Of a stretch of DNA of 64,000 bases, positions 22,687 through 41,818 are shown piece after piece. The position numbers and the translations under genes were made by a program. The notes under the pieces are model-generated. The model was given only the letters and a program-made list of their open reading frames with translations. It had not been told where the DNA came from and ran no database searches. This DNA comes from Streptomyces globisporus (GTDB lineage Bacteria; Actinomycetota; Actinomycetes; Streptomycetales; Streptomycetaceae), in assembly GCA_014649555.1 (NCBI GenBank), contig BMTG01000004.1, positions 544,031-608,030 of the forward strand, read 5' to 3'. Positions within the stretch are counted from its first letter, which is position 1. Each line of letters begins with the position of its first letter.

Positions 22687-23322
22687 ATGACCGCGGACGC
22701 CAGACCGGCAGCGCCTGCGCTGACCGAGCGCCAGGAGGCCCGTCGCCGCCGCATCCTGCACGCCAGCGCCCAGCTGGCGAGCCGGGGCGGGTTCGAGGCG
22801 GTGCAGATGCGGGAGGTGGCCGAGGCCGCCGGGGTCGCGCTGGGCACGCTCTACCGTTACTTCCCGTCCAAGATCCACCTGCTGGTCGCGACCATGCAGG
22901 ACCAGCTCCAGCATCTGCACACCACGCTCCGCAAGCGCCCGCCGGCCGGTGACGACGCGGCCCAGCGGGTGGCGGAGACGCTGATGCGCGCTTTCCGCGC
23001 CCTCCAGCGCGAACCGCACCTCGCGGACGCCATGGTCCGCGCCCTCACCTTCGCCGACCGCAGCGTGAGCCCCGAGGTGGACACGGTCTCCCGGCTCACC
23101 ACGGCGATCATCCTGGACGCGATGGGGCTGGAGCATCCGTCACCGGAGCAGCTCTCGGCGGTCCGGGTCATCGAGCACACCTGGCACTCGGCGCTGATCA
23201 CCTGGCTGTCGGGGCGGGCGTCGATCGCCCAGGTGAAGATCGACATCGAGACGGTCTGCCGCCTCATCGACCTGACGGCGGAGCCGGGGACCGGGGCGGC
23301 GAGGGAGCTGGACCGGGGCTGA
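22687..23322 (+). CDS. kstR: TetR-family regulator, KstR-like
   Basis: The 211-residue protein starts at ATG 22687 with GGGGAC upstream. The N-terminal HTH (about 17-65) includes RRRRILHASAQLASRGGFEA, VQMREVAEAAG and TLYRYFPSKIHLLVA. It is nearly the same as the DNA-binding domain of mycobacterial KstR, the cholesterol-catabolism repressor released by steroid-CoA intermediates. The C-terminal ligand domain also aligns (WHSALITWLSGRAS). Eight-of-eight KstR boxes precede this gene and two catabolic operons, which supports the assignment. Its 3' end overlaps the convergent PPTase gene by 59 bases. Confidence 0.88.
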   Translation: MTADARPAAPALTERQEARRRRILHASAQLASRGGFEAVQMREVAEAAGVALGTLYRYFPSKIHLLVATMQDQLQHLHTTLRKRPPAGDDAAQRVAETLMRAFRALQREPHLADAMVRALTFADRSVSPEVDTVSRLTTAIILDAMGLEHPSPEQLSAVRVIEHTWHSALITWLSGRASIAQVKIDIETVCRLIDLTAEPGTGAARELDRG

Positions 23323-23977
23323 GCGGCGGCACGGGGGTCTCGGCGGCCCCGGCGTCCCTGTCAGCGCGGCCGGCTCCGGCGGCTCCGGTGGCTCCGGCGA
23401 GGGCCACCACGGCCGCGCGGCGCAGGTCCGTCCACACGGTCAGTGGGACGTCGTCCCGCCCGGCCTTGAACAACGCCTCCCGCCGGACCCACAACCGCAG
23501 CAGCGCCGGACCGGGATCCGGCTCGGCGCAGGCGGCGTCCACCTCGTCGTGCGGCAGCAGCCTCCGCAGTACGGGGACGGGCCCCGGCCGACGCGTCAGG
23601 GGCTCCACATCGATACCGACCGGGCCCGGCCCGACCACCGCCGCTGCCAGTCCGTCGGCATGGCTGAAACTGGCGCCGAGCCCGGGGTGGTCCGGGAGAT
23701 ACGGCCGACCGTGCCCGTCCCGCCCGCATCCCGGGCAGCGCTGGGCCGGCTCCACTGCACGCGGCGGCAGCCCGGTGGCCCGGGAGGCGCACAGCCGCAG
23801 CAGCAGCCGGGCCGCCACCACGTCGTCGCGCCGGGCGGGCACCCGGATGCCCGCGAGCCTGCGCCGCTCCCACGGGGCGAGCAGGCCCTCGTCCAGCTCC
23901 GGGTGGGCCAGCACCTCGGCGGTGGTGGCGACCAGCGCGACGGGGGCCGCGCCCACCCGGCCGGGGCCTGCGTTCAC
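23264..23977 (-). CDS. 4'-phosphopantetheinyl transferase (Sfp-like)
   Basis: The 237-residue product starts at GTG 23977, overlapping the carrier-protein stop codon (GTGA). The PPTase signatures are present: the Mg-binding GIDVEPL near residue 123 and WVRREALFKAG near 168. A CPGCGRDGHGRPYL block near residue 87 is the usual substrate-binding stretch. It transfers the phosphopantetheine arm of CoA to the Ser of a carrier protein, almost certainly the one encoded immediately upstream. The tail is Pro/Ala-rich. Confidence 0.87.
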   Translation of the reverse strand: MNAGPGRVGAAPVALVATTAEVLAHPELDEGLLAPWERRRLAGIRVPARRDDVVAARLLLRLCASRATGLPPRAVEPAQRCPGCGRDGHGRPYLPDHPGLGASFSHADGLAAAVVGPGPVGIDVEPLTRRPGPVPVLRRLLPHDEVDAACAEPDPGPALLRLWVRREALFKAGRDDVPLTVWTDLRRAAVVALAGATGAAGAGRADRDAGAAETPVPPLSPGPAPSPPRSPAPPSGR

Positions 23978-24225
23978 CCGGCCGGGACCTCCGCGTGGCC
24001 GGCGGGGTCGAGGAAGCGCTCCTTGACGCGGGCGAGGGTGCGGAAGTCGTCGATGGTGACCGCCTGCAGATCGATGCTGCTGCCCGAGATCTCCTCCAGG
24101 AGATCGACGAACTCCAGGAAGTCCATCGAGTCGATGAGGCGGGCTTCGATGAGGTCCTCGTCCACGCCGATCGGGCCGTCGAGGCCGGGGTTCTTCTCGT
24201 GGAGCCACGCTGAGACCTGGTCCAT
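23974..24225 (-). CDS. Stand-alone acyl/aminoacyl carrier protein
   Basis: The 83-residue protein has a typical four-helix carrier pattern and the attachment serine S33 in DSMDFLEFVDLL. GAGGAG lies 8 bases before ATG 24225. It is placed between an amino acid:[carrier protein] ligase and a PPTase, with a four-base overlap to the latter. It is therefore the likely scaffold on which an amino acid is held as a thioester for the rightward-encoded tailoring and condensation enzymes. Confidence 0.87.
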   Translation of the reverse strand: MDQVSAWLHEKNPGLDGPIGVDEDLIEARLIDSMDFLEFVDLLEEISGSSIDLQAVTIDDFRTLARVKERFLDPAGHAEVPAG

Positions 24226-24299
24226 GGGGAAAACGCTCCTCTTGCTGTTCTCTGTTCTGGTGACCGAACCGTTCCGGCGGCCGACGGACGGGGTGGAGG

Positions 24300-25163
24300 T
24301 CAGGAACCGGTGACGGCGGCCCGGAGCCGCTCCAGCGCCTGCTCGGCCGTGCCGTGGGCGAGGATCATCGCGTGCACCCAGCGCTCGACGCCGAAGGCGA
24401 CGCAGGAGCTGTACGCGGGCCCGTGGGAGCCGGCGCGGATGGAGAGCCGCTCGCCGAAGAAGTTGCGGTGCCGGTTGACGGAGGCGATGGCCGTACCGTC
24501 GGGAGCGCTGTACTCGTACTTGACCGGATCCAGTGCCATCAGACGGGCCCGCGACCCCCCGTTGTCGTAGAACGGGTCGTCGGCCGCCGCCCGGGTCAGG
24601 GTCAGGCCGAGCCGCCCCGCCACCTCCTGGACGAACTCCCCTCCCCGCGCCTGGTGTTCGGTCGCCCCGTCCTTGGTCCCGAGGTAGATCACCTCACGCA
24701 TATGGAACCCCCACAGGCGGCGCAGGCCGTCGTAGTGGGTCTCGTTGCGGAAGCAGCGGCCGACCGCCGAGAGCCGCAGCCCGTCGTCGCCGACGTCCTC
24801 GCCCTCCAGGGAGAGCAGCAGGCCGTAACAGGTCGCGGACGGCAGCACATGGCCGGTCGGCTGGAGCGGGAGATCCCGGGGCGAGCCGCCGGAGGCCAGA
24901 CCGTCGAGCACGTCCGGGCCGAACCGCCCCGCGGACACACCGAGATGGGGGAAGTTGCGGAAGAAGTCAAGCCGTGCGAGGCCGTCGACGGAGAGCAGGG
25001 GAGGCCCCACCACCTCGGGGGCGGAGAGCTGCGCGGCCAGACCGGTCAGCAGGTCGTCCAGGCCCCGCAGCAGGGCGGTGCGGACCGGGTCCAGCGTGAT
25101 CAGCCCGGCGCCGGGGCTCTTCAGCTCGATGTCCGGCAGGGCGGTGATGCTGGGTGTGTTCAT
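24300..25163 (-). CDS. Class II aaRS-like amino acid:[carrier protein] ligase
   Basis: The 287-residue protein resembles the catalytic core of atypical SerRS without a tRNA-binding arm. Candidate zinc ligands are C112, E157 and C254. Motif 2 is GRCFRNETHYDGLRRLWGF and motif 3 ends in FGVERW. Homologues activate an amino acid with ATP and load it onto the phosphopantetheine of a partner carrier protein rather than tRNA. The carrier gene lies 74 bases downstream. The start is ATG 25163; an upstream start at 25229 cannot be excluded. The amino acid is not predictable by eye; glycine and alanine are known in the family. Confidence 0.83.
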   Translation of the reverse strand: MNTPSITALPDIELKSPGAGLITLDPVRTALLRGLDDLLTGLAAQLSAPEVVGPPLLSVDGLARLDFFRNFPHLGVSAGRFGPDVLDGLASGGSPRDLPLQPTGHVLPSATCYGLLLSLEGEDVGDDGLRLSAVGRCFRNETHYDGLRRLWGFHMREVIYLGTKDGATEHQARGGEFVQEVAGRLGLTLTRAAADDPFYDNGGSRARLMALDPVKYEYSAPDGTAIASVNRHRNFFGERLSIRAGSHGPAYSSCVAFGVERWVHAMILAHGTAEQALERLRAAVTGS

Positions 25164-25225
25164 GAGACCGCGTCTTTCTGGAAAAGCGGGTTGACAGGTC
25201 GTCACGAACCCGACCACACCCTTGG

Positions 25226-25255
25226 ACACTAGGCCCGTCGCTCACCTGTTGTCTA
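25226..25255 (-). promoter_or_regulatory. Candidate promoter of the ligase-ACP-PPTase operon
   Basis: Read leftward, TAGACA (-35 like, 25250-25255) and TAGTGT (-10 like, 25226-25231) are 18 bases apart. The distance to ATG 25163 leaves a leader of about 55 bases. The -35 element lies inside the DasR-like site. Confidence 0.5.
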
Positions 25256-25260
25256 GACCA
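25250..25260. promoter_or_regulatory. DasR-like operator (dre) 1
   Basis: TGTCTAGACCA matches 10 of 11 bases of the core GGTCTAGACCA of the DasR-responsive element, a GntR/HutC-type site. It overlaps the -35 element of the predicted leftward promoter. Confidence 0.55.
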
Positions 25261-25262
25261 AA

Positions 25263-25282
25263 GATACCGAACGCCAGGTATC
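25263..25282. repeat. Inverted repeat GATACC-N8-GGTATC
   Basis: Perfect 6-bp arms lie in the divergent control region next to the DasR-like site. It may bind a further regulator; none is identified. Confidence 0.45.
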
Positions 25283-25315
25283 GGTTCCGTGGCCAGCGGG
25301 CACAGGACGGCACAC

Positions 25316-25329
25316 CATATCCCCATATG
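25316..25329. repeat. Inverted repeat CATAT-CCCC-ATATG
   Basis: Perfect 5-bp AT-rich arms stand out in a GC-rich control region, about 11 bases upstream of the predicted rightward -35 element. Function unknown. Confidence 0.4.
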
Positions 25330-25339
25330 CACCAGGCAC

Positions 25340-25369
25340 TTGACAGTCCGGGCGGTCTGGACCAATCCT
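25340..25369 (+). promoter_or_regulatory. Candidate promoter of the PhyH operon
   Basis: TTGACA at 25340-25345 is a perfect -35 element. AATCCT at 25364-25369 is a weak -10 after an 18-base spacer. A DasR-like site fills the spacer. Confidence 0.5.
25354..25364. promoter_or_regulatory. DasR-like operator (dre) 2
   Basis: GGTCTGGACCA matches 10 of 11 bases of the dre core GGTCTAGACCA. It lies within the spacer and -10 region of the predicted rightward promoter, so both divergent promoters carry one such site. Confidence 0.55.
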
Positions 25370-25484
25370 GCTGATCGACGTGGTCACGGCTCCTCGCACC
25401 ACGGCACTGCCATCCGTCCCGCCGACCGTGGCGACCCCGCTCCCCCGGGGTCGCCACGCGGCCGGCCGAGGAGAAGAACCTGCC

Positions 25485-26591
25485 ATGAACCTCATGACGA
25501 CCCCCGCCCCCCGCCGCCGGCCCCGCCTGCACCGGGCGGCGTCGGACATCCCGTACTTCAGCGCGGACGGCGAGGCCTACCTCGCGCAGACGGCCCTGCG
25601 GGAACTCGACAAGTCGCGTCCGCTGCGAGTGCTGTCCGAGGAGGACTTCGCCCACTGGCAGACGTACGGCTACGTCATCGTCCGAGAGGCGATACCGGCG
25701 GCGACGGCCCGCCGGCTGCTCGACTTCACCTGGGAGTTCCAGGGCCTGGACCCGGACCGGCCGGAGAGCTGGTACGAGGACCGGCCGCTGCGCTCCGAGC
25801 TGGACCAGCAACTGCACATCTACGGCTTCGTGGAGGCGTACCACCACCAGCTCCTCTGGGACAACCGGCAGTCGCAGCGGGTGTACGACGCCTTCGTCGA
25901 CGTGTGGGACTGCGAGGAGCTGTGGGTCACCCTGGACCGGCTCAACCTCAACCCGCCCAACCGGGGCAACCGGGACCGTGCGCTGATCGAGGCGACGGAC
26001 CGGGGCTTCGACATCGAGCTGCACTGGGACATCGACACCACGCTCGCGGTGCCGCCGCAGCGGGTGCAGGGCATCATCGCGCTCAACGACACCCGGCCGG
26101 AGACGGGCGGCTTCCAGTGCTGCCCGGAGCTGTTCCGGCAGTTCGACGCCTGGAAGGTCGCCCAGCCCGCGGACCGGGACCCGTTGCGCCCGGACATCGA
26201 CCGGGACGAACTCCCCGTCGTACGGCCGGATCTGCGCCCCGGTGACCTGCTGATCTGGAACGGTCTGCTGGCTCACGGGGTGGCACGTAACCTCTCCGAG
26301 AACGGGGTGCGGGCCGTGCAGTACCTGTCGATGATGCCCGCGCTGGAGGAGCACGAGCGGCTGCGCAAGTCCCGGGTGGAGTCCTGGCGCCATCTGCGCA
26401 CCCCGCGCTGGAACCGCACGCTGGTCGGCGACCCGGTGCTGCCCGAGTCCAAGCGCTACCCGACGGCCGAGCTGAACCCGCTGGGCAGCCGGCTGCTGGG
26501 ACTGGCCTCCTGGCAGGACCCGGTCGAGGACACATCGGCCACCGCACCGGCCGCCGCAAGCGGGGAGCCTTCGTGCGCCGCGTCTGCCTGA
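25485..26591 (+). CDS. Phytanoyl-CoA dioxygenase (PhyH)-family Fe(II)/2-oxoglutarate oxygenase
   Basis: The 368-residue product starts at ATG 25485 with GAGGAG upstream. The facial triad is visible as H180-x-D182 (ELHWDID) and H264 (LLAHGVARN), with a downstream Arg for 2-oxoglutarate. PhyH-type enzymes in biosynthetic loci often hydroxylate amino acids, free or carrier-bound. As first gene of the rightward operon opposite the aminoacyl-carrier genes, it probably hydroxylates the loaded residue or the product. Its last 19 bases overlap the next gene. Confidence 0.85.
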   Translation: MNLMTTPAPRRRPRLHRAASDIPYFSADGEAYLAQTALRELDKSRPLRVLSEEDFAHWQTYGYVIVREAIPAATARRLLDFTWEFQGLDPDRPESWYEDRPLRSELDQQLHIYGFVEAYHHQLLWDNRQSQRVYDAFVDVWDCEELWVTLDRLNLNPPNRGNRDRALIEATDRGFDIELHWDIDTTLAVPPQRVQGIIALNDTRPETGGFQCCPELFRQFDAWKVAQPADRDPLRPDIDRDELPVVRPDLRPGDLLIWNGLLAHGVARNLSENGVRAVQYLSMMPALEEHERLRKSRVESWRHLRTPRWNRTLVGDPVLPESKRYPTAELNPLGSRLLGLASWQDPVEDTSATAPAAASGEPSCAASA

Positions 26592-27889
26592 CCCTGCCCA
26601 CGCACCGTGCGTGCACCGGGACGATCACGGCAATCGCCGAGGAAGCGGCTTACGGGGCAAGGGAGTTCGGCGCCTCGGTCCATCTCCTGATCCTGGACTC
26701 CTCCCCCGCGCCGGTGCTCGCGGAGCACCGGAAGGCGGTGGCCGCGCTGCCCGGGACGCCCGGGGTATCCGTCCACCACCTCGACGAGGGTGAGCAGCGG
26801 GCTTTCCTGCGCGAGGTGGCGACCCGGTCCGCCGGGGATGCGGCTTTCGCGGACCGGCTGCTGGAGCTGATGCTGCCGTCCCGCGTCTCCTACGGGGCCT
26901 GCACCAACCGGGCGTTCCTCATCGCCCAGGCCCTCGGCTGCACGTCCGTCCACCGGCGGGACTCCGACAGCCGCTACCAGTACACCGACGGCGAGCCGGT
27001 CTTCCCCCTCCACCAGGAACTCACCTACCTGGGCCAACGGGCGGAGGACATAAGGAAGTCGGCAACGCGGAGCAAGCTGCCGCCGGGTTCGGGCGACCGG
27101 CGGGTGGCGGTGGCGGGCGGATCGTTCGTGGGCGAGATGTCGGTGGACGTGGCGGAGATCCGCGACCTCGACCCGGACACGTACGGCGAACTGGTCGGCC
27201 TGTCGCTGCCCGAGGGCTCCCCGGAGATCTGGCGCAACCACCTGATCGACGCGTCGTTCCGGGGCGCGGGGAACGGGACGTTCGACGGCGACCACGCCAC
27301 GCTCGCCCCGATCAGCCCGATGCGCGTGGACATGTGCAACGTGGCGCTGGACCACGAGGTCTACCGCCGAGTGCCGCTGCCGCCCGCCACGGACACCATC
27401 GGCACCGACTACTTCCTGCTCCACCTCACCCATGACGCCCGGCTGCCCGGTCTCCAGCACGACCGGCACATCGTGAACTTCCATACGGAGGAGCGACGTA
27501 CGGACGCCGGGTTCCTGGCGTACCAGGTCCGGTTCGCGAAGTTCCTTCTCGCGAAGGCGTATCTGAACGCGGTGTACGCGAGGACGGCGGCGACCGGTGA
27601 CACGCTGCTCGACGCGGAGGGCCACATCCGGGCGTCCGTGGTGGCCCGCTACGTCCGGGACAGCGTCGACCTCGACCGTACGGACGTCGCCCGTCGCCTC
27701 GACGTCATCGACCGGGCGTACCGCCGGCTCGGCGGCCGCTACACGGCGGTCTCCGACACACTCGCCGACCGCCGCTCGCGGCTCCTGGACGAGGCCCGCG
27801 ACGACATGGCCGACTTCGCCCATCTGATGGACCACTGGGAGGCCCTGGCCGGTGCGAGCGCCGAAGCGGGCCTGGCCGTGACCCGATGA
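26573..27889 (+). CDS. GT-A-like protein (resembles DUF6271), biosynthetic
   Basis: The 438-residue product starts at GTG 26573 with GGGGAG upstream, inside the end of the PhyH gene. The N-terminus (VCLTLPTHRACTGTI) and a DSD motif at 130-132 (HRRDSDSRYQ) fit a GT-A glycosyltransferase fold with a metal/nucleotide-sugar DxD site. A conserved-looking MLPSRVSYGACTNRAFLIA stretch precedes it. It is translationally coupled to the C-domain gene by an ATGA overlap. The sequence recalls actinobacterial proteins called DUF6271; an acceptor or sugar is not known, and transferase activity is inference. Confidence 0.7.
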   Translation: MRRVCLTLPTHRACTGTITAIAEEAAYGAREFGASVHLLILDSSPAPVLAEHRKAVAALPGTPGVSVHHLDEGEQRAFLREVATRSAGDAAFADRLLELMLPSRVSYGACTNRAFLIAQALGCTSVHRRDSDSRYQYTDGEPVFPLHQELTYLGQRAEDIRKSATRSKLPPGSGDRRVAVAGGSFVGEMSVDVAEIRDLDPDTYGELVGLSLPEGSPEIWRNHLIDASFRGAGNGTFDGDHATLAPISPMRVDMCNVALDHEVYRRVPLPPATDTIGTDYFLLHLTHDARLPGLQHDRHIVNFHTEERRTDAGFLAYQVRFAKFLLAKAYLNAVYARTAATGDTLLDAEGHIRASVVARYVRDSVDLDRTDVARRLDVIDRAYRRLGGRYTAVSDTLADRRSRLLDEARDDMADFAHLMDHWEALAGASAEAGLAVTR

Positions 27890-29658
27890 CCCCGACCCCC
27901 GCCGTCGGCAAGGACACCATGCACCAGAACCCTCCGCCCCTCACCACGACCACGGTCACCGTCGCCTACGCGGGCGGTGACGAGCGCCGGGGACCCGTCA
28001 CCATGGGCCAGGCCAACATGATCCGCTGCATCCTGCGGGACGACCCGACCCACATCAACATCCACGATGTGTGGCCCGTCCCCGAGGGCACCACCCCGGC
28101 GGCCGTCACCGACGCCCTGAGCACCCTGGCCGTACGGCACGAGGGGCTGCGCACCACCTTCCCGCACGCGCCGGGCGCGGCGCCGGTCGACCAGGTCGTG
28201 GCGGCGGAGGGCACGTTCACGGTGACCGTCCTCGACCACGCCGAACTCCCCGGCGATCCGGCGGAGTACGCGGAGTCGGTGGCGCGGGCGGCGCGGGCAG
28301 GGCGTTTCGCCCTGGAGCGGGAGTTTCCGATGCGGATCACCCTGCTCACCGTGGCCGGACAACCGGCTTACGTGGCACTGGCGTTCAGCCACGCGGTGGC
28401 GGACGGCAGCGCGATGGCCATCCTGCGCGAGGAGTTCGCGGAACTGCTGGCGGGCAAGGAGCTGTCGGAGCTCACGTCCCTGCCCCCGGTCGACCTGGCC
28501 GCCGTGGAGGCGTCCCCGGCCGGGCTGCGGAAGTCGGAGGCGTCCCTGCGGTACTGGGAGCGGATCCTCCGCACCGGGCCGCAGGAGATGTTCGCCGAGC
28601 CGCGCGGCAGGAGGCCGGGCACCGACGAGGAAGCCCGACAGCTGACGCTCCGCTCGCGCCGGGGCGCCCGGGCACTCGCCGGGGCGGCCCGCCGCACCGG
28701 GCACCCCGAGGCCACCGTGCTGATGGCCGCCTGGTGCGCCCTGGTGGCCCACCGGGCGGGCCAGGACAGCTGTGTCACCGCCGTCCCGAGCGCCAACCGG
28801 TTCCACGCCCGGGTCGCCCGTTCGGTGACCACCACGTCCCAGGACGCGCTGCTCCACCTGGACGTCGGGGTGGGGACGTTCGACGCGCTGGTCACCCGGA
28901 CGTGGGGCGCGGTGCTCGACGCCTACCGGCACAGCCAGTTCGACTCCGTACGGCTGTGGGACATGATCGGCCGGGTCACGGCCGAGCGCGGCAGCCACTT
29001 CGGCCGGGACGTGGTGTTCAACGACGTGAGCGCCCTGCCCGCCCCGCTCCTGGGTACCGAAGCGCAGGACCGCGACGACGCCGAGCAGGAGCTGACCTGG
29101 GGTCCGCCCCAGGCACTGCCGACCCGGCTGCTCGCCTTCACGTACCGGACAGCGCCCCAGCTCCACATCTCCCTGTGGGCCGCCCCCTCGGTCTTCACCC
29201 CCGAGGAGGCGGAGGGGTTCCTCACCGGGTTGGTCCTGTTCCTGGAGGCGGTCGCCGCCGGGGACGTGCCGATGGAGGCACTGGCCGAGGTGACGGGAGT
29301 CCGCCCCGCCGAACGCGGGCCCGACTGGCTCCGGGTGGACGGCTGCTGGGTCTCGCCCGATGCGGTGCGCGAGACCCTGGGCCGGGCGGTGGGCGGACTG
29401 CCGGTGTGGGTGCAGGTGAACGAGGCATCCGGCGCGGACTCGCGCCTGACGGCGTACATCGCCCGCGGCGCAACCTCCTTGACGCCCGAGGAGGCCCACC
29501 GGGCGCTGACCGCCCTCATCCCGGCCGCCGGCTCGGGGGTCCTGGCGCCCCACCGCTACGTACTCGTCGAGAACCCGCCCACCGAGCCGGACCGGAGCGA
29601 CGCATGGCGTCGGCTGAACACCATCGATGAAGGGACCGGCAGAAGCCGGCAGGTGTGA
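27886..29658 (+). CDS. Stand-alone condensation-domain protein
   Basis: The 590-residue protein is an NRPS condensation-superfamily enzyme. The HHxxxDG motif appears as S168-H169-A-V-A-D173-G174, keeping the second, catalytic His but losing the first. The acceptor-side half (about 240-480) follows. Residues about 500-585 (LTAYIARGATSLTPEEAHRA, VLVENPP) resemble the small C-terminal subdomain of adenylation enzymes without its catalytic core. It could join the carrier-bound amino acid to an amine or alcohol. The start is ATG 27886 in an ATGA overlap; ATG 27919 is an alternative. Confidence 0.83.
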   Translation: MTPTPAVGKDTMHQNPPPLTTTTVTVAYAGGDERRGPVTMGQANMIRCILRDDPTHINIHDVWPVPEGTTPAAVTDALSTLAVRHEGLRTTFPHAPGAAPVDQVVAAEGTFTVTVLDHAELPGDPAEYAESVARAARAGRFALEREFPMRITLLTVAGQPAYVALAFSHAVADGSAMAILREEFAELLAGKELSELTSLPPVDLAAVEASPAGLRKSEASLRYWERILRTGPQEMFAEPRGRRPGTDEEARQLTLRSRRGARALAGAARRTGHPEATVLMAAWCALVAHRAGQDSCVTAVPSANRFHARVARSVTTTSQDALLHLDVGVGTFDALVTRTWGAVLDAYRHSQFDSVRLWDMIGRVTAERGSHFGRDVVFNDVSALPAPLLGTEAQDRDDAEQELTWGPPQALPTRLLAFTYRTAPQLHISLWAAPSVFTPEEAEGFLTGLVLFLEAVAAGDVPMEALAEVTGVRPAERGPDWLRVDGCWVSPDAVRETLGRAVGGLPVWVQVNEASGADSRLTAYIARGATSLTPEEAHRALTALIPAAGSGVLAPHRYVLVENPPTEPDRSDAWRRLNTIDEGTGRSRQV

Positions 29659-29659
29659 C

Positions 29660-30940
29660 ATGAGCGTTGACGACACGACCCTCCCGCAGCAGCCGGCCAC
29701 GCTGCCGAGCCCCTGGCGGTCGACCCGGTTCCGGCTGTTCTTCACGGCCCGCAGCGCGTCGCTGCTGGCCGACGGCATGCTCATGGTCTCCCTGACCACG
29801 GCGGTGCTGGGGGCGGGCCACGGGGCGAGCGGCGTCGGGTACGCGCTGGCGGCGTGGATGACCCCGATCGTGCTGCTGGTGCTGTTCGGCGGGGTGCTGG
29901 CCGACCGGTTCACGCCGCAGCTGATGATGATCTGCGCGGACGTGGCGCGCATGCTGGCCATGCTGACGCTGGCCACCCTCCTCTTCTCCTCGGACAGCGT
30001 CCCCCTGTGGCAGATCATGGGGCTGATGGCGCTGAGCGGGGCCGCGACGGCGATGTTCCAGCCCGGGATGGCGAGCATGGTCCCCCGGGTCGCGGAGGAC
30101 ATCCAGAAGGCCAACGCCCTGCTGCGGATCTCCGAGGCGCTGAGCACGCTGCTGGGCCCGGGCCTGGCGGGCATCCTCGTCGCGTACTGGCAGGTCTCGG
30201 GCTCCTACATCGTCATCGCGGCGGCGTACGCGCTCAGCGCCCTCGTCCTCCTCCCCCTGCGCAAGCTGCACACGGAACGCGACGAGGGCGACGCCCCGAT
30301 GTGGCGCAGGCTGGCGACGGGCTGGCAGGAGTTCCGGTCCCGCCAGTGGCTGTGGGGCGTGATCGCGGTCTGGTCGGTGTACGGCCTGTTCGTGTTCGGC
30401 CCGGCGCTGCCGCTGGGCGCGGCACTGATGATCGAGCAGCACGGGGCGAGCGGCTACGGCTGGATCGCCTCGGCGGACGGCGCGGGCACGATCATCGGCG
30501 GCCTGATCGGCATGCGCGTCCGCCCGCGCCGCCCCTTGGTCGCGGGTGCCCTGGCGATGCTCTGCTTCGCGCTCAACCCCCTGGCCCCGGCACTGGAATG
30601 GTCCTTCGCGGCCACGGCGATCGCCCACGTGATCGCGGGCTACGGCTTCGCGTTCTGGGGCGTGATGTGGGCGACGAGCGTCCAGTCGCACATCCCCCTG
30701 ACGGTCCTGAGCCGCGTCTCGGCGTACGACGTCGCGGGCTCCATCATGGTCATCCCCCTGGGCCGCGCCCTGGCGGGCCCGGCGGCGGACGCGTTCGGCG
30801 CGAACGAGGTGCTGGTCTTCTCGTCGGTGATGTCGTGCGCGCTGCTTGCGGTGATGCTGAGCGTCCCGGCGATCCGGGCCCTGCGGCGGGCGCCGGAGGG
30901 GCTGCTCCGGACGAAGGCGGAGGGGGAACCGGCGGTCTGA
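29660..30940 (+). CDS. MFS exporter (MFS_3/enterobactin-exporter-like)
   Basis: The 426-residue protein has about 12 hydrophobic segments and a motif A variant LFGGVLADRFTPQ near residue 75. Its N-terminus (STRFRLFFTARSASLLADGM) is typical of the DHA3/EntS branch that exports small biosynthetic products. The start is ATG 29660, one base after the C-domain stop, so expression is coupled. It most likely exports the product of this locus. Confidence 0.85.
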   Translation: MSVDDTTLPQQPATLPSPWRSTRFRLFFTARSASLLADGMLMVSLTTAVLGAGHGASGVGYALAAWMTPIVLLVLFGGVLADRFTPQLMMICADVARMLAMLTLATLLFSSDSVPLWQIMGLMALSGAATAMFQPGMASMVPRVAEDIQKANALLRISEALSTLLGPGLAGILVAYWQVSGSYIVIAAAYALSALVLLPLRKLHTERDEGDAPMWRRLATGWQEFRSRQWLWGVIAVWSVYGLFVFGPALPLGAALMIEQHGASGYGWIASADGAGTIIGGLIGMRVRPRRPLVAGALAMLCFALNPLAPALEWSFAATAIAHVIAGYGFAFWGVMWATSVQSHIPLTVLSRVSAYDVAGSIMVIPLGRALAGPAADAFGANEVLVFSSVMSCALLAVMLSVPAIRALRRAPEGLLRTKAEGEPAV

Positions 30941-31334: not shown

Positions 31335-31568
31335 TCACTCCTCCGGCGGAAAAACCACCTCCCCCGACCCCGCCAGCGTCAGCGTGATCGCCTCCACCGG
31401 GCAGCCCTCCGCCGCCGCCAGGACGTCTTCGCCCGCGTCGCGGTTCTCCTTCGTCGGGTGGGACTGGCGGACCGAGTCCAGGCGGAAGGCGTCGCCCGCG
31501 TGGTTGACGCACATGCCGGAGCCGATGCAGACCGAGCGGTCGACCTCCACGTGCCAGCGGTCGCCCAT
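31335..31568 (-). CDS. [3Fe-4S] ferredoxin, P450 partner type
   Basis: The 77-residue acidic ferredoxin has Cys at 14, 20 and 56 (CIGSGMC and GCPVEAI). The three-cysteine pattern typical of single 3Fe-4S ferredoxins that donate electrons to actinobacterial cytochromes P450. ATG 31568 overlaps the aldehyde dehydrogenase stop by one base (TGATG), so the two are coupled. It is a natural electron-donor candidate for CYP125 encoded at 41884, which has no ferredoxin gene beside it. Confidence 0.85.
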   Translation of the reverse strand: MGDRWHVEVDRSVCIGSGMCVNHAGDAFRLDSVRQSHPTKENRDAGEDVLAAAEGCPVEAITLTLAGSGEVVFPPEE

Positions 31569-33037
31569 CACGCCTCCCGGTAGCCGGCGGGCAGGTGGAT
31601 CATCTTGTGCTCGAAGAACTCGCTGTAGCCCTCGGGGCCGAACTCGCGGCCCAGGCCCGAGTTCTTGTAGCCCCCGAACGGGCCGAGCATGTCGAGGCTG
31701 AAGGTGTTCACGCTGTACGTGCCCGTGCGGATGCGGCGGGCGATGTCGATGCCGCGTTCCGTGTCCGCCGTCCAGACGCTGCCGCTGAGGCCGTACGGGG
31801 AGTCGTCGGCGATGCGGACCGCCTCGGCCTCGTCCCCGTACGGGATCAGGCAGATCACCGGGCCGAAGATCTCCTCGCGGGCGATGCGCATGGAGTTGTC
31901 GACCGAGCCGAAGAGGGTGGGTTCGACGTACCAGCCGCGTTCCTGGGAGGCCGGCACGTTGCCTCCCGTGAGGATCTTGGCGCCCTCCTCCTGGCCCAAC
32001 CTGATGTAGTCCAGGGAGCGTTGTTGCTGGCGTCGGGCCACCAGCGGGCCCAGTTCCGTTGCCGGGTCCAGGGGGTCGCCCACCCGCAGGGCCCCCGCCG
32101 CTGCCGCGAATGCCTCCGCTATTTCCTCGTAGCGGGAGCGCGGCGCCAGGATGCGCGTCTGCGCCACGCACGCCTGGCCGTTGATCATCCAGGCGAACGG
32201 GACGATGCCCGCCACCGCCGCTTCCAGGTCTGCGTCCGGGAGGATGACTGCTGCCGATTTGCCGCCCAACTCCAGAGTGACGCTGGTCAGGTTGCGCGAC
32301 GCCACCTCCATCACCCGGCGGCCGGCCGCCACCGAACCCGTGAAGGAGACCTTGTCCACGTCGGGGTGGCCCACCAGGTACTCGCTGACCTCCCGGTCGG
32401 CCGGGAGGATGGAGAGGACTCCGGGCGGCAGGCCCGCCTCTTCTGCTATTTCCGCCAACACGTAGGCGTCCAGGGGGGTTTCCGGGGAGACCTTCAACAC
32501 CGCCGTGCAACCCGCCAGCAGCGCCGGGGCCAGCTTCGCCGCCGCCGTGAACTGCGGGACGTTCCACGGGACGACCGCCGCCACCACGCCCACCGGTTCA
32601 CGGCGGACCAGCAGCGGGCCCAGAACACCGTCGCGCCGCTCCTCGTACGGGAACGTCCGAGCCACCGTGATCGCCGAGTCCCACACCATCATCGCGGCCA
32701 GCGCCTGCACCATGACGCTCGAGCTGTACGGGGTGCCGTTCTGCGCGCTGATCAGGCGCGCGAACTCCTCGTGGCGTACGGCGAAGGCGTCCTTGATCCG
32801 GGTGATCACCGCGATCCGCTCGTCCAGCGGCATCCGGGGCCAGGGGCCCTCGTCGAAGGCCTGGCGGGCCGCGGCGACCGCCCGGTCCACGTCGGCCTCG
32901 GAGGCGTGCGGCACGCGGCCGATGACCTGTTCGGTGTGCGGGGAGATCACCTCGATGACCTCGGTGGAGAGCGGATCGGTGAACTCCCCTCCGATGAACA
33001 GGCGTCCGTGCTCCACCAGCTCCGTACGTTCCGTCAT
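31568..33037 (-). CDS. NAD(P)-dependent aldehyde dehydrogenase
   Basis: The 489-residue product starts at ATG 33037 with GGGAGG upstream. The catalytic residues are E256 in LELGGK and C290 in INGQACVAQT, and the cofactor region has FTGSVAAG near 232. It oxidises an aldehyde to an acid. Coupled to a P450-type ferredoxin and preceded by KstR-like and CTGACG-type sites, it may convert a sterol C26 aldehyde to the carboxylate. Three GTGAACCC-like 8-bp direct repeats (33052-33078) lie in its leader. Confidence 0.87.
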   Translation of the reverse strand: MTERTELVEHGRLFIGGEFTDPLSTEVIEVISPHTEQVIGRVPHASEADVDRAVAAARQAFDEGPWPRMPLDERIAVITRIKDAFAVRHEEFARLISAQNGTPYSSSVMVQALAAMMVWDSAITVARTFPYEERRDGVLGPLLVRREPVGVVAAVVPWNVPQFTAAAKLAPALLAGCTAVLKVSPETPLDAYVLAEIAEEAGLPPGVLSILPADREVSEYLVGHPDVDKVSFTGSVAAGRRVMEVASRNLTSVTLELGGKSAAVILPDADLEAAVAGIVPFAWMINGQACVAQTRILAPRSRYEEIAEAFAAAAGALRVGDPLDPATELGPLVARRQQQRSLDYIRLGQEEGAKILTGGNVPASQERGWYVEPTLFGSVDNSMRIAREEIFGPVICLIPYGDEAEAVRIADDSPYGLSGSVWTADTERGIDIARRIRTGTYSVNTFSLDMLGPFGGYKNSGLGREFGPEGYSEFFEHKMIHLPAGYREA

Positions 33038-33096
33038 GGCCGTCGCCTCCCGTTGAACCCGTGAACCCGTGAACCCGTACGCCAGCACATCCTCAG

Positions 33097-33111
33097 CTGA
33101 CTGTTCGTCAG
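33097..33111. promoter_or_regulatory. CTGACG-N3-CGTCAG dyad, one mismatch
   Basis: CTGACTGTTCGTCAG has one mismatch in the left arm. It lies 60 bases upstream of the aldehyde dehydrogenase start. Confidence 0.55.
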
Positions 33112-33126
33112 AACTGATACCAGTTC
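33111..33126. repeat. Inverted repeat GAACTG-N4-CAGTTC
   Basis: Perfect 6-bp arms abut the CTGACG-type dyad, with a further GTTTCA half-site to the right (33129-33134). Together they form a composite control region between the aldehyde dehydrogenase and MBL genes. Confidence 0.5.
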
Positions 33127-33198
33127 TTGTTTCAGTAGTCCACGGGGGTCACCGCGTCAATGGCCCCCGCACTCCCACGATGTGGTAGACCCGGGCTA

Positions 33199-33226
33199 CC
33201 ACTGAAACGAGTTCTCGTTACAGTGG
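33199..33226. promoter_or_regulatory. 28-bp near-palindrome with KstR/KstR2-like core
   Basis: 12 of 14 base pairs match. The segment 33203-33216 (TGAAACGAGTTCTC) fits the KstR consensus at 7 of 8 fixed bases. The central 14 bases 33206-33219 fit the KstR2 consensus AnCAAGnnCTTGnT at 8 of 10. It ends 25 bases before the MBL start codon and could also act on the divergent aldehyde dehydrogenase operon. Confidence 0.65.
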
Positions 33227-33251
33227 AGGCCGAAGCGGAGAAGGGGAGCCC

Positions 33252-34313
33252 ATGGCGCAGGTGACTCACGGGACCGGGACGCAGGTGGCCGACCACGGCG
33301 GGGGCGTCCACAGCATCAAGGTGCCCATCCCGGACAATCCCCTCGGGCACACCCTGGTCCACCTCGTCGACACCGACCGGGGGCCCGTCCTCATCGACAC
33401 CGGGTGGGACGACCCCGCCTCCTGGGACACCCTCGTCGCCGGGCTCGCCGCCCTCGGTACCGCCGTCACCGACATCCACGGCGTCGTCATCACCCACCAC
33501 CACCCCGATCACCACGGCCTCTCCGGCCAGGTCCGCGAGGCGTCCGGGGCCTGGATCGCGATGCACGAGGCCGACACCGCGATCGTCCGGCGTACCCGGG
33601 AGTCCGAGCCCGGCACCTGGCTCGACTACCTCACCCGCAAGCTCGCCACCGTCGGCGCGCCGGACGACCACCTCGCCCCGCTGCGCGCCGCCCGCAGCGG
33701 GGGGCGGCTGCGGACCCTGCCCGGGCTGCGTGCCGCCCTGCCGGACAGGGAGATCGTCCCCGGCGAGCTGCTCGACCTCGCCGGGCGACGGCTGCGTGCC
33801 GTCTGGACGCCCGGGCACACCCCGGGCCACGTCTGCCTCCATCTGGAGGAGCGGCATCCCGCCGGGCTGGCGGGGAACGGGCGGCTGTTCTCCGGCGATC
33901 ACCTGCTGCCGGGGATCAGTCCGCACATCGGGCTGTACGAGGACCCGGACGACACCGCCGTCACCGATCCGCTGGGCGACTACCTCGCCTCGCTCGAACG
34001 GATCGGCCGGCTCGGGGTGGCCGAGGTGCTGCCCGCGCATCAGCACGCCTTCACCGATGCGGGCGGGCGGGTGCGGGAGCTGCTGGACCACCACGAGGAG
34101 CGGCTGACCGGGCTCCTCGCCCTGCTCGCCACGCCCCTCACCCCGTGGCAGCTCGCCGAGCGGATGGAGTGGAACCGGCCCTGGGAGCAGATCCCGCACG
34201 GTTCGCGGTCCATCGCCGTGTCGGAGGCCGAGTCCCATCTGCGACGGCTCGTGAAGCTCGGCCGCGCCGAGGCCGTCCCGGGCGGGCCCCCGGTGTCGTA
34301 CATCGCCGCCTGA
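33252..34313 (+). CDS. MBL-fold metallo-hydrolase
   Basis: The 353-residue protein has the metallo-beta-lactamase motif THHHPDHHG (H82, H84, D86, H87), a later TPGHTPGH histidine and FSGDHLL, and a C-terminal winged-helix-like part ending in LVKLGRAEAV. This layout matches LACTB2-like hydrolases, some of which act as thioesterases. It is divergent from the aldehyde dehydrogenase and preceded by a KstR/KstR2-like palindrome. A role in hydrolysing a CoA thioester or lactone in steroid breakdown is possible but not shown. Confidence 0.83.
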   Translation: MAQVTHGTGTQVADHGGGVHSIKVPIPDNPLGHTLVHLVDTDRGPVLIDTGWDDPASWDTLVAGLAALGTAVTDIHGVVITHHHPDHHGLSGQVREASGAWIAMHEADTAIVRRTRESEPGTWLDYLTRKLATVGAPDDHLAPLRAARSGGRLRTLPGLRAALPDREIVPGELLDLAGRRLRAVWTPGHTPGHVCLHLEERHPAGLAGNGRLFSGDHLLPGISPHIGLYEDPDDTAVTDPLGDYLASLERIGRLGVAEVLPAHQHAFTDAGGRVRELLDHHEERLTGLLALLATPLTPWQLAERMEWNRPWEQIPHGSRSIAVSEAESHLRRLVKLGRAEAVPGGPPVSYIAA

Positions 34314-34383
34314 GCCCTCACTCGGCCCCGGGCGACCTCGGTGACGTACATCGCTACGCGCGCCCCCGGCCCCTCCCCTACGG

Positions 34384-34536
34384 ACCGGTAGAGTGGGCAG
34401 GTCGTCATCATGCCCGTACGGGAGGACGCCGGAGACCGTCCGGCGCAGCGCCCCAGCCGTGACCCGTCCGCCCGACGGCAGCCGGACCGCCCTCCGCGGA
34501 GCGTGACCGGCTCGGGCCACCGGAACCCCGGTGGCC
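34384..34536 (+). ncRNA. Cobalamin-riboswitch-like leader
   Basis: The stretch GCCGGAGACCGTCCGGC (34428-34444) followed by GCAGCGCCCCAGCCGTGA corresponds to the cobalamin riboswitch core (GCCGGTGAAAATCCGGC, then GCGGTCCCGCCACTGTGA). It is preceded by a TGGGCAGG...TGCCC stem and GGGAGGA. A perfect 9-bp hairpin (34515-34536) downstream could be the expression platform. It lies 86 bases before an operon encoding a toroid surface protein and an ECF transporter, a usual target of B12 control. Confidence 0.62.
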
Positions 34537-34621
34537 GGCACCGTCGAGGCATACGGGGCCGGAGCCCGGTGCCCTCGTGCGCCCGGGGAGTCCGGCCCTC
34601 GCAGGAGAGGCCCAGCCAGCC

Positions 34622-35890
34622 ATGACCGTACGCCGCAGCGCAGCCGCGCTCGCGACCACCGCCGTGCTCCTGGGCGTCGCCGCCCCCGTGGCGGTCGCCC
34701 CTGTGGCGGTAGCCGCACCGAGTCCTTCTCCGTCGGCGGATCTGCCGGCCGGGCTCTACGGCACCACGGACCCCACCTACGACGGAGTGTGGCGGCAGTC
34801 GCTCGCCTTCCTCGCGCAGAAGATCGAGTACGTCACGCCGTCGACGCAGGCGGTGGACTGGCTGGTGGGCCAGCAGTGCGACAGCGGGGCGTTCACCTCG
34901 TACCGGGCCGACACCTCCAAGCCCTGTGACGCGTCGACCGTGATGGACACCAACGCCACCGCCGTCGCCGTCCAGGCCCTCGTCGAGATCAACCAGCGCC
35001 GCGAGGACGCCAACAACGGGGCCGACTGGCTGAAGTCCGTGCAGAACGAGGACGGCGGCTGGGGCTACAACCCGGGCAGCCCGTCCGACGCGAACTCCAC
35101 CTCCATCGTCATCGGCGCGCTCGCCCGCACCGGCGTCCCGGTCAACGAGCTCACCACCAAGAACGGCAGCACCCCGTACACCGCACTCCAGTCCCTGGCG
35201 ATCGCCTGCGGCGAGAAGGACGGCGGCGCGTTCGCCTACCAGCCGGGCAAGAAGGGCGAGCTGGCCGCCAACATGGACGCCACCGCGGCCTCCGTGCTCG
35301 GTCTGATGGGCAAGGGCATCGCCTCCGGCACGTCCAACGCGGTCAAGGACCCCTCCTGCACGAAGGGCGACGACCTCAGCCCGGAGCAGACCGCCCAGAA
35401 CGGCGCCTCCTTCCTCGCGGACACGCTGGCGAAGCAGCCGTATCTGGAGCAGGCCCCGATGCCGGGCGCCGAGGAATCCACGCCGCAGCCCGACTACGGC
35501 AACACCTCGGACGCCGTCGTCGCGCTCGCCGCCTCCGGACACGCGGACAAGGCCAAGGCGTCGGTCGCCTGGCTGCAGAAGAACGGCACCGGCTGGGCGA
35601 AGCAGGGCGGCCCGGCCGCCACCGCGCAGCTGATCCTCGCCGCGCACGCCACCGGCGCCGACGCGCGCAGCTTCGGCGGCGTCGACCTCGTCAAGCAGCT
35701 CAACTCGATGGGGCCCTCCCCGGCCGCCACCGCCCTCCCCTCGCCGACGCCGACCGGTCCGCAGCCCTCCAGCGGCACCGACAGCGACGACGGCGGGCTG
35801 AGCCTGGGGTGGCTGATCGGCATCGGGCTGCTCGCCGGTACCGGCATCGGCTTCCTGCTCAGCATGCGCGGGAAGAAGAAGCAGCCGTGA
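34622..35890 (+). CDS. Secreted, membrane-anchored alpha/alpha-toroid protein, transcobalamin-like
   Basis: The 422-residue product has a signal peptide (residues 1-33). A repeat domain follows (about 45-375) with squalene-cyclase-like turns such as NEDGGWGYNP and QCDSGAF. Then come a Pro/Ser/Thr linker, a C-terminal transmembrane helix (about 392-415) and a KKKQ end. Such toroids form the cobalamin-binding alpha domain of intrinsic factor and transcobalamin. With the riboswitch-like leader and ECF genes this suggests corrinoid capture at the cell surface (inference). Its stop overlaps the next gene (GTGA). Confidence 0.75.
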   Translation: MTVRRSAAALATTAVLLGVAAPVAVAPVAVAAPSPSPSADLPAGLYGTTDPTYDGVWRQSLAFLAQKIEYVTPSTQAVDWLVGQQCDSGAFTSYRADTSKPCDASTVMDTNATAVAVQALVEINQRREDANNGADWLKSVQNEDGGWGYNPGSPSDANSTSIVIGALARTGVPVNELTTKNGSTPYTALQSLAIACGEKDGGAFAYQPGKKGELAANMDATAASVLGLMGKGIASGTSNAVKDPSCTKGDDLSPEQTAQNGASFLADTLAKQPYLEQAPMPGAEESTPQPDYGNTSDAVVALAASGHADKAKASVAWLQKNGTGWAKQGGPAATAQLILAAHATGADARSFGGVDLVKQLNSMGPSPAATALPSPTPTGPQPSSGTDSDDGGLSLGWLIGIGLLAGTGIGFLLSMRGKKKQP

Positions 35891-36591
35891 GCCCTGCACA
35901 GGCCACCGCCCGGCTGCGCGTTCCCCTCGTCGCCCTCCTGGCCGCCCTCGTCGCCGCCTCCGCCGTGCTCCTCGGCGCGGGAAGCGCCCAGGCCGCCGGC
36001 TACCGCTACTGGTCCTTCTGGGAGGGCAACGGCAAGAACTGGGAGTACGCCACCCAGGGGCCGTCCCTCCTGCGCCCGGACGACGGTACGGTCCAGGGCT
36101 TCCGGTTCGCCGTGAGCGAGGACTCGGGCGACGCCGACCAGCCGCGCCGTGCCCCCGACTTCGGGGCGATCTGTGCGGACACCCCGGCAAAGGACGGGAA
36201 GAAGCGGGTGGCGCTGGTGATCGACCCGGGGACGACCACGGACGCTCCGGACGGGGAGAAGCCGCCCGCCCTGCGGACGATCTGCGCCCAGGTCGCGCCG
36301 GACGCCAGCAGTGCGGAGGCACTCGCCGCGGTGGCGAAGCCGCTGCGGTACGACGACAGCGCCATGCTCTGCGCGATCTCCGGCTATCCGAAGTCCGGCT
36401 GCGGCGAGCAGGTGTCCGGCGACTCCGGCAGCGCCAAACCGTCCGACCCCGCGAAGACCACCGACGGCCCGGAGAAGAGCGACGAAGGTGACGGGGGCGG
36501 CGGCGGTCCGTCCGTCGGGCTGCTGGTCGGCATCGGCGCCGTCCTGCTGCTCGGCATCGCTGCCGTCGTCCAGGCCCGCCGCCGCCGGTGA
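35887..36591 (+). CDS. SCO2322-like secreted membrane-anchored protein
   Basis: The 234-residue product starts at GTG 35887. It has a signal peptide with AQAA cleavage region near residue 37, then YRYWSFWEGNGKNWEYA, which recalls the DUF4430 beta domain found in B12-binding proteins. A Ser/Asp/Gly-rich linker and a C-terminal transmembrane helix with an RRRR end follow. Two Cys residues near CAISGYPKSGC may form a disulfide. It is coupled to both neighbours by GTGA overlaps. The B12 link is inferred from context. Confidence 0.75.
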   Translation: MSPAQATARLRVPLVALLAALVAASAVLLGAGSAQAAGYRYWSFWEGNGKNWEYATQGPSLLRPDDGTVQGFRFAVSEDSGDADQPRRAPDFGAICADTPAKDGKKRVALVIDPGTTTDAPDGEKPPALRTICAQVAPDASSAEALAAVAKPLRYDDSAMLCAISGYPKSGCGEQVSGDSGSAKPSDPAKTTDGPEKSDEGDGGGGGPSVGLLVGIGAVLLLGIAAVVQARRRR

Positions 36592-39478: not shown

Positions 39479-40335
39479 GCGGTACGCAGAGGGTCCGGGC
39501 TCCCCGGCCCGTGCGGCTCGGACCGAAGTCGGTCGCCGTGCTGCTGCTGACCGGGGCCATCGGTGTGGTCGCCTTCGGGTGGCCGCTGCTGGCGGACACC
39601 GGGTCGGGGCTCGCGCACGCGCAGGACGCGCCCTGGCTGTTCGCGGCACTGCTGCCGCTGCTGGTCGCGGTGGTGGTGGCGACGATCTCGGAGTCCGGGA
39701 TGGACGCGAAGGCCGTCGCGATGCTCGGCGTGCTGGCGGCGGTCGGGGCGGCGTTGCGCCCGCTCGGCGCGGGGACGGCGGGGCTGGAGCCGATGTTCTT
39801 CCTGATGGTGCTGAGCGGCCGGGTGCTCGGTCCCGGCTTCGGCTTCGTGCTCGGCTCGGTGACCATGTTCGCCTCGGCGCTGCTGACGGGCGGGGTCGGG
39901 CCGTGGATGCCGTTCCAGATGCTGTCGATGGGCTGGTTCACGATGGGCGCGGGCCTGCTGCCGGGGCCCGACCGGGTGCGCGGGCGGGCCGAGCTGGCGA
40001 TGCTCGCTGTGTACGGGTGCGTCGCGGCGTTCGCCTACGGGGCGGTGATGAATCTGCAGGGCTGGCCGCTCATCACCGGTCTCGGCTCGGGGATCTCGTT
40101 CGACGAGAACGACCCGCTGCACGAGAACCTGGTGCGGTTCGTCGCCTACTACCTGACGACCTCCCTGGGCTGGGACCTGGGGCGGGCGGTGCTGACGGTG
40201 GTGCTGACCCTGACGCTCGGCCCGACGCTGCTGAAGGCGCTGCGCCGGGCCACCCGCCGCGCCGCGTTCGACGCGCGGGTGGCGTTCGGGGAGCCGGAGA
40301 GGCAGCCCGAGGGGACGGCCCCGGGCTCGTCGTGA
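39475..40335 (+). CDS. ECF transporter S component
   Basis: The 286-residue membrane protein has about six to seven hydrophobic segments. Hallmarks of CbrT-like S components are RVLGPGFGFVLGSVTMFASALLTGG near residue 120 and GVGPWMPFQMLSMGW. It determines substrate specificity of the transporter. The riboswitch-like leader argues for cobalamin or a precursor. ATG 39475 overlaps the ATPase stop, and it ends the five-gene operon. Confidence 0.87.
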   Translation: MSGTQRVRAPRPVRLGPKSVAVLLLTGAIGVVAFGWPLLADTGSGLAHAQDAPWLFAALLPLLVAVVVATISESGMDAKAVAMLGVLAAVGAALRPLGAGTAGLEPMFFLMVLSGRVLGPGFGFVLGSVTMFASALLTGGVGPWMPFQMLSMGWFTMGAGLLPGPDRVRGRAELAMLAVYGCVAAFAYGAVMNLQGWPLITGLGSGISFDENDPLHENLVRFVAYYLTTSLGWDLGRAVLTVVLTLTLGPTLLKALRRATRRAAFDARVAFGEPERQPEGTAPGSS

Positions 40336-40377
40336 AGGGCCGCTGGGGCCGCCAGGGCCGTTGGGGCCGCTACGGGG

Positions 40378-41818
<1,441 letters not shown>

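Follow-up and report, generated by a model that had tools for sequence, protein, structure and literature searches.

A compact Streptomyces gene cluster with a SerRS-like amino acid:[carrier protein] ligase and a DUF6271 protein: a possible two-module route to an aminoacylated small molecule

How might a cluster with an amino acid-activating ligase, a single free carrier protein, a stand-alone condensation protein and no nonribosomal peptide synthetase (NRPS) adenylation domain build its product? The question is raised by a compact locus of Streptomyces globisporus (NCBI GenBank assembly GCA_014649555.1, contig BMTG01000004.1). The stretch of DNA that was analysed, called the window throughout, comprises 64,000 nucleotides (positions 544,031 to 608,030 of the forward strand), and the seven intact genes of the cluster form two divergent, tightly packed runs at positions 23264–30940 of it. 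The original prediction, made from the sequence alone, had placed two divergent coupled operons there, in agreement with the gene calls and family searches reported here, and had credited them with every step to load, hydroxylate, condense and export an amino-acid-derived metabolite, by implication one series on one amino acid. The reading favoured here is a pathway of two modules, one making an acceptor off the carrier and the other adding a carrier-borne aminoacyl group to it, so that the cluster would yield an aminoacylated small molecule; the probability of this reading is put at roughly 0.4. The features of the locus are the following.

23264–23977, minus strand: Sfp/AcpT-like 4'-phosphopantetheinyl transferase (PPTase; Pfam ACPS), with a likely GTG start
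23974–24225, minus strand: free-standing acyl/peptidyl carrier protein of 83 residues, with its Ser in a DSM motif and a PP-binding match below the cut-off
24300–25163, minus strand: class II seryl-tRNA synthetase (SerRS)-like amino acid:[carrier protein] ligase of 287 residues, matching 4h2w/3mey
25164–25484: divergent intergenic region separating the two operons
25485–26591, plus strand: PhyH-type Fe(II)/2-oxoglutarate oxygenase (Pfam PhyH) with a complete HxD...H motif
26573–27889, plus strand: DUF6271 protein (PF19787) of predicted GT-A fold, with HRRDSD at residues 127–132
27886–29658, plus strand: free-standing condensation (C) protein (Pfam Condensation) with the active site SHAVADG
29660–30940 (or from 29627), plus strand: major facilitator superfamily (MFS) exporter (MFS_1)

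The start of the PPTase gene was chosen in the analysis and gives a 4-base overlap with the carrier stop, and a possible GTG at 25229 offers an alternative start for the ligase. On the plus strand, the PhyH and DUF6271 genes overlap by 19 bases, which argues that both proteins are made together, and the DUF6271 and C protein genes by 4 bases. In profile searches of the window proteins the curated family cut-offs were passed by PhyH, Condensation, MFS_1, ACPS and DUF6271, and each member of the predicted composition is supported by a family search or by a match to a solved structure. The anticipated lack of an NRPS adenylation domain is borne out as well: family profile searches matched none in the seven proteins, the tail of the C protein only resembling the C-terminal subdomain of one.

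The two-module reading starts from the distribution of DUF6271, a Pfam family without assigned function to which the gene earlier described as GT-A-like belongs (PF19787, E 4.8e-202). A protein search returned 204 relatives in contigs taken from one genome per species; the best 80 were fetched, and among records with a species name those closest to the window protein come from S. rubiginosohelvolus, S. globisporus, S. sindenensis and S. parvus (93–88% identity). DUF6271 is present in 123 of 392 sampled Streptomyces genomes and in 5 of 396 genomes of a phylum-wide sample, the genome of the window included. Class A, the type found in the window (ligase, carrier and PPTase on one side, PhyH, DUF6271, C protein and MFS on the other), occurs in 35 of the 123, that is in about one in 11 of the Streptomyces species sampled (35/392). 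Class B, found in 82 of them, combines PhyH and DUF6271 with a fold-III pyridoxal phosphate (PLP)-dependent decarboxylase, a GNAT protein and a different MFS protein, and has neither ligase nor carrier; the classification listing assigns 83 of 125 entries to class B, one extra genome coming from the phylum-wide sample. One hybrid and five distant or cut loci make up the remainder. No genome of the 123 carries both labels, where about seven would be expected if they were independent (35 x 82 / 392, uncorrected for kinship).

All seven families lie close together in 65 of 215 loci (some strains having been fetched twice) and in 32 of the 35 class A genomes, the other three being represented by short or cut loci; one of these is the genome of the window, and the window itself holds all seven. 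Locus counts are counts of records whose sources overlap, and the genome counts are preferable. In two of the 35 genomes (G608 and G759) the DUF6271 matches come in pieces. The flanks of class A clusters vary. Among the 65 complete loci, 22 have the TetR gene that neighbours the window cluster; large plasmids carry the cluster in S. clavuligerus. The grouping of the seven families exceeds chance and the cluster is not strain-specific, so that the conservation check proposed with the original prediction turned out in its favour.

Class B bears directly on where the oxygenase and DUF6271 act. Its PhyH proteins are 69–75% identical to that of the window (17 aligned rows) and retain the metal-binding residues, and its DUF6271 proteins are 52–59% identical in the aligned rows. 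A ligase match, found in 117 of the 392 genomes and in 35 of 35 class A genomes, is absent from 30 of 40 class B genomes for which all candidates were scored and from 62 of 82 in a wider, shallower search with at most five candidates scored per genome. Because these close relatives serve clusters that lack carrier and ligase, and most of the genomes concerned gave no ligase match, PhyH and DUF6271 very probably act off the carrier, to judge from such comparisons, and the load-hydroxylate-condense series on one amino acid is not supported. Acting off the carrier, the pair would make the acceptor, and the carrier-loaded amino acid would be the group that is added.

The ligase, too, has relatives in a different setting. 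Thirty-two ligase neighbourhoods outside class A were fetched, of which 28, at 37–70% identity (a range that spans two programs), were drawn from at least 85 matches of 37–68% identity. An AurF-like diiron oxygenase lies within the locus for 27 of these 28 relatives (L224–L231 and L245–L264); 23 of the 28 have a labelled carrier, and 22 have either a nitronate-monooxygenase-like gene (11) or a methyltransferase (11). The four weaker loci stand outside this count, L232 being without AurF, L233–L235 having no labelled ligase and L234 no genes called. Ligase and AurF look like a recurrent Streptomyces cassette, suggesting N-oxygenation of a carrier-bound amino acid, and no paper on a SerRS-like ligase with an AurF-like cassette was found in licensed PubMed Central (PMC) text. 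Four of the ligase-AurF loci, L229, L245, L246 and L256, also encode a C protein (a fragment in L245); that of L229 has the same tail as the window protein and is followed by an MFS gene, cut by the end of the locus, whose product is 56% identical to the window exporter.

Both modules thus occur independently, and they meet in a hybrid locus of Streptomyces sp. TRM64462 (L035/L149) that holds ligase, carrier, AurF, nitronate-monooxygenase-like, PhyH, DUF6271 and decarboxylase genes, with a ligase of class A type (82% identical). The DUF6271 tree recovers class A as a clade (SH-aLRT 99) and puts the hybrid next to it as sister; the ligase tree unites class A and the hybrid (100/99) inside the AurF-linked ligases, without settling where within that group the hybrid belongs. 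On the strength of the hybrid, the two trees and the AurF-linked ligase relatives, class A is best explained by the joining of an AurF-type ligase cassette to a PhyH-DUF6271 core, with later loss of AurF and the decarboxylase.

Within the first module, the PhyH protein (8.6e-10, 39.7 bits, cut-off 22) has metal residues H180, D182 and H264 that are invariant in 23 of 23 aligned rows. An HxD motif, rather than HxA/G, marks a hydroxylase and not a halogenase, and from this motif the window enzyme would be a hydroxylase. The AlphaFold2 model of DUF6271 (pLDDT 94.7, pTM 0.93) recovers MtdL structures at ranks 1–6 of a Foldseek search (E 5.6e-8 for 7xps, the best, to 2e-7), followed by the GT-A glycosyltransferases GlfT2, PcManGT, TarP and others, at TM-scores of just 0.43–0.56; its DxD-like HRRDSD is invariant across 41 aligned rows. 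Since sugar transfer is the most frequent role of the GT-A fold, it is the favoured role, and on the strength of the model DUF6271 may transfer a sugar, with about equal chances for and against. Two candidate features were discarded along the way: a C-terminal CAxSA motif of PhyH, which lies where the gene overlaps the DUF6271 start by 19 bases and is absent from some class B rows, and in-frame TGA recoding in DUF6271, flagged in several genomes and judged on eight of the flagged loci (L124–L131), where the TGA is an ordinary C-terminal one in a protein of 429–430 residues.

The nature of the core can be approached through the class B decarboxylase, which is nearest to the lysine/ornithine decarboxylases of known structure (2plj, E 2.9e-40, with GPTCDS common to both). 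A class-B-like decarboxylase is also found in 2 of 20 class A genomes (G432 and G553), away from DUF6271, the other 18 giving weak matches of about 30% identity; it stands beside a GNAT and a glutamine-synthetase-like gene in G553 (L266) and beside the latter in G432 (L265), and these lone loci hint at diamine chemistry. The kinship of the decarboxylase and these neighbours suggest a core that is a basic amino acid or a diamine; that the substrate is a basic amino acid would stand in even balance.

A NagZ-like GH3 gene adds to the description of class B. Of 99 class B loci, 78 have this gene no more than 5.5 kb away (50 in the same and 28 in the opposite orientation), against none of 65 class A loci; these totals leave out 43 loci of either class whose upstream DNA was short and treat two hybrid records as class B. 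Examples are L044 6878–8398 and L048 7260–8771, and the gene is sometimes accompanied by a sugar ABC transporter and a GntR regulator (names assigned by eye). Its presence fits a glycoside in class B, of which it could possibly be a self-protection or activation gene, and says nothing direct on class A.

In the second module, the ligase matches the solved amino acid:[carrier protein] ligases 4h2w/3mey over residues 50–297 (E 4.3e-23). With 103.1 of the 357 bits required it does not reach the cut-off of NCBIfam PRK07080, of which it is, by sequence, a diverged relative and no equivalog; against Pfam tRNA-synt_2b it scores 24.1 of 29.3 bits. C112, E141 and C254 (alignment numbering), which we take to be zinc ligands, are invariant in 18 of 18 rows, including one Bacillota relative. 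The carrier scores 16.6 bits against Pfam PP-binding (E 0.0093, cut-off 20.8), has a Ser in DSM as the candidate site of modification and adjoins both the PPTase gene and, throughout the complete class A loci, the ligase gene. The PPTase (Pfam ACPS, 2.4e-8, 34.4 bits, cut-off 25) contains VGID and WVRREALFK, presumably PPTase motifs. That the ligase loads this carrier is, as far as sequence goes, to be expected with high confidence. Glycine or alanine as the loaded amino acid would agree with the relatives of the ligase that have been studied.

The C protein matches Pfam Condensation (5.8e-24, 85 bits), and the second, catalytic His and the Asp of SHAVADG are invariant in 24 rows. The best Foldseek match of its model (pLDDT 81.5) is the C-A didomain of Txo2 (7e-22), with the stand-alone enzyme SgcC5 (4znm) at rank 12 and C domains matched too. 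Stand-alone C enzymes such as SgcC5 and VibH use a carrier-bound donor and a free acceptor and need no thioesterase. The C protein would probably work likewise, transferring the aminoacyl group from the carrier to an acceptor that is not bound to it, and a carrier-bound donor with an off-carrier acceptor is the economical scheme for a cluster with one carrier and no thioesterase among its seven genes.

The C protein ends in a tail of about 110 residues (478–590, approximately 29317–29655), modelled with the strand order of an adenylation C-terminal subdomain. Compared with three such subdomains, picked by a motif devised in the analysis, the tail scored 29.3, 19.7 and 13.0 against the individual subdomains and 27.3 against their alignment, the best of 297 random segments reaching 20.7. 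In view of the strand order, the C-A didomain as best fold match and the moderate statistical support from these scores, a resemblance to a degenerate adenylation C-terminal subdomain is rated probable; a profile built from the tail gave no significant NRPS match among 3403 locus proteins (best NRPS-like E 0.11). The tail may descend from an NRPS ancestor in which the ligase took the place of the adenylation core. The MFS protein, last in its operon, matches MFS_1 (8.3e-26) as well as TIGR00900 (6.7e-45) and EntS (5.4e-23), the latter two below their curated cut-offs.

The proposed pathway would run as follows. Off the carrier, PhyH would hydroxylate an ornithine/lysine-type basic amino acid or a derivative, and DUF6271, translationally coupled to PhyH and most likely a metal-dependent GT-A glycosyltransferase, would act on the same substrate; the product of this module, perhaps a hydroxylated, glycosylated basic amino acid, would be the acceptor. 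In the other module, the SerRS-like ligase would adenylate a small amino acid and load it onto the holo-carrier, primed by the adjacent PPTase, and the C protein would move the aminoacyl group onto an amine (or hydroxyl) of the acceptor, a step that would release the product without a thioesterase, as in stand-alone C enzymes, for export by the MFS protein. A broader proposal is doubtful: DUF6271 would have a new enzyme role in small-molecule biosynthesis. Together with PhyH it would supply about one third of Streptomyces species with a common core, a hydroxy-(basic) amino acid bearing a sugar, which class B would decarboxylate and acetylate and class A aminoacylate via ligase, carrier and C protein, class A having been fused from the class B core and an AurF-type ligase cassette with the intermediate surviving.

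Other readings of the same genes differ in where the chemistry takes place and in what DUF6271 does. Hydroxylation of carrier-bound substrates is well known, and this precedent, the divergent neighbourhood of PhyH and ligase in the 65 complete class A loci and the ligase match in every class A genome would suit an on-carrier series, in which, after loading by the ligase, the carrier-bound amino acid is hydroxylated by PhyH (SyrB2-like), modified by DUF6271 and condensed by the C protein. Such a series is nonetheless quite unlikely, given that the close class B relatives of PhyH and DUF6271 belong to clusters with neither ligase nor carrier and that most of the genomes concerned gave no ligase match. 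DUF6271 might instead resemble MtdL in activity, as a nucleotide-sugar mutase or a related enzyme of GT-A fold, in which case the aminoacylated acceptor would be a rare sugar or a nucleotide derivative. The six top ranks of the fold search go to MtdL, and split transketolase genes lie beside DUF6271 in S. clavuligerus, after the class A cluster (L216 14007–15650), and in Apilactobacillus (L218), but the TM-scores are low, glycosyltransferases come directly next in the list, nucleotide-sugar genes are absent among the seven and transketolase matches in only 2 of 219 loci, these same two, for which reason it was rejected as a core part of the pathway; the mutase reading is unlikely.

The ligase-carrier pair itself also recurs in Agrobacterium-type loci, for which a note added in proof of PMC2922099 proposes aminoacylation of a cell-surface sugar or another envelope component, a glycosidase and sugar context being reported there. 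A corresponding role here is very unlikely, as an MFS exporter ends the operon in complete class A loci, no envelope gene is among the seven, and the distribution is patchy and includes carriage on plasmids. It is hardly to be expected, finally, that an AurF-like enzyme of another cluster N-oxygenates the loaded amino acid in trans, giving a product with an N-oxide, oxime or nitro group: AurF accompanies nearly all the ligase relatives and is paired with a class-A-type ligase in the hybrid, yet among the loci compared strong AurF matches occur only in the hybrid and in non-class-A ligase loci, three others being weak.

The two-module pathway, which remains the preferred reading, has several observations to contend with. 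The HHxxxDG motif of the C protein is incomplete, its first His being replaced and its Gly variable across the 24 rows. MtdL, the closest fold match of DUF6271, is a metal-dependent nucleotide-sugar mutase and not a transferase, and no sequence link from DUF6271 to a solved enzyme was found. A ligase relative is present elsewhere in the genome in 20 of the 82 class B genomes. The LysA model TIGR01048 also scores the class B decarboxylase (E 9.8e-38, below cut-off), and the DUF6271 and ligase trees are midpoint-rooted and came with long-branch warnings. The GH3 protein, at 184.6 of 207 bits, is below the NCBIfam beta-N-acetylhexosaminidase cut-off, and its link, absent in class A, may be class-B-only or positional. 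Observed are the families, the conserved motifs, the predicted folds, the conservation, the separate occurrence of both modules and the hybrid; all substrates, the DUF6271 reaction and the product are inferred.

Comparison with known systems places the cluster among several partial likenesses. The ligase is like Bradyrhizobium Bll0957 (4h2w/3mey) in its class II core without a tRNA-binding arm, its Cys/Glu/Cys set and its adjacent small carrier, and differs from it in length (287 versus 346 residues) and in belonging to an operon pair with PhyH, DUF6271 and a C protein. In the butirosin side-chain pathway (BtrI/BtrJ/BtrH), a carrier-bound aminoacyl group is passed to a small acceptor by means of an ATP-grasp loader and a BtrH-type transferase; the window cluster uses a SerRS-like ligase and a C protein in their stead. 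The C protein has the fold of the stand-alone enzyme SgcC5 but, unlike stand-alone C enzymes, a tail like an adenylation C-terminal subdomain, with a ligase replacing the A domain. DUF6271 shares with MtdL and the GT-A glycosyltransferases a predicted GT-A core and a DxD-like motif and is unlike them in having no detectable sequence relation and a long helical C-terminal part. In the valanimycin (VlmL/VlmA) and related azoxy pathways (PMC11705231 and PMC2922099), an aminoacyl-tRNA synthetase-like enzyme likewise supplies an aminoacyl group to a small acceptor, and AurF-like oxygenases, which stand beside the window-ligase relatives, have a counterpart there in VlmB; unlike the window system with its carrier and C protein, VlmL makes seryl-tRNA for VlmA. 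Literature searches of licensed PMC text found no described pathway of the seven-family composition, as the original prediction had supposed, and no paper mentioning DUF6271.

Several further loci were noted around these subjects. The window flanks (22687–23322 and 31335–43137) encode a KstR-like TetR (196 of 280 bits), an aldehyde dehydrogenase, a ferredoxin, a P450 and a thiolase; judging by them, the cluster looks set into a lipid or steroid catabolism island. In S. clavuligerus, a second PhyH-DUF6271 pair on another plasmid (L217 8937–13445) lies by genes annotated as an MBL-fold hydrolase and an N-acetyltransferase and is possibly a third cluster type. Distant DUF6271 proteins also occur in L116–L119, and L118 and L119 place theirs by DegT-like, kinase-like, glycosyltransferase-like and asparagine-synthase-like genes (by eye), a possible further pathway type. 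Plasmids of the honeybee-associated Apilactobacillus kunkeei (6 records, one examined, L218 6201–16599) carry a distant DUF6271 (96.6 bits, cut-off 25) together with a SerRS-like ligase, a carrier, two ATP-grasp proteins, a class IV aminotransferase, the split transketolase and an MFS protein (by eye). To judge by these genes, L218 would be a small-molecule cluster on a honeybee-symbiont plasmid, and a second phylum thus has DUF6271 in company with ligase and carrier. The PLPX locus tags of L218 lead us to infer that it is a pLPX plasmid, a kind which a paper on A. kunkeei strains characterises by its surface protein (PMC9648514).

Class A and class B clusters are both short enough for whole expression in a laboratory Streptomyces host. 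The cluster is a compact, widespread test case for what SerRS-like amino acid:[carrier protein] ligases make, and DUF6271, so far an orphan Pfam family, gains a likely fold and a set of genetic partners. The surviving intermediate, in turn, shows the joining of two separate modules into one pathway.

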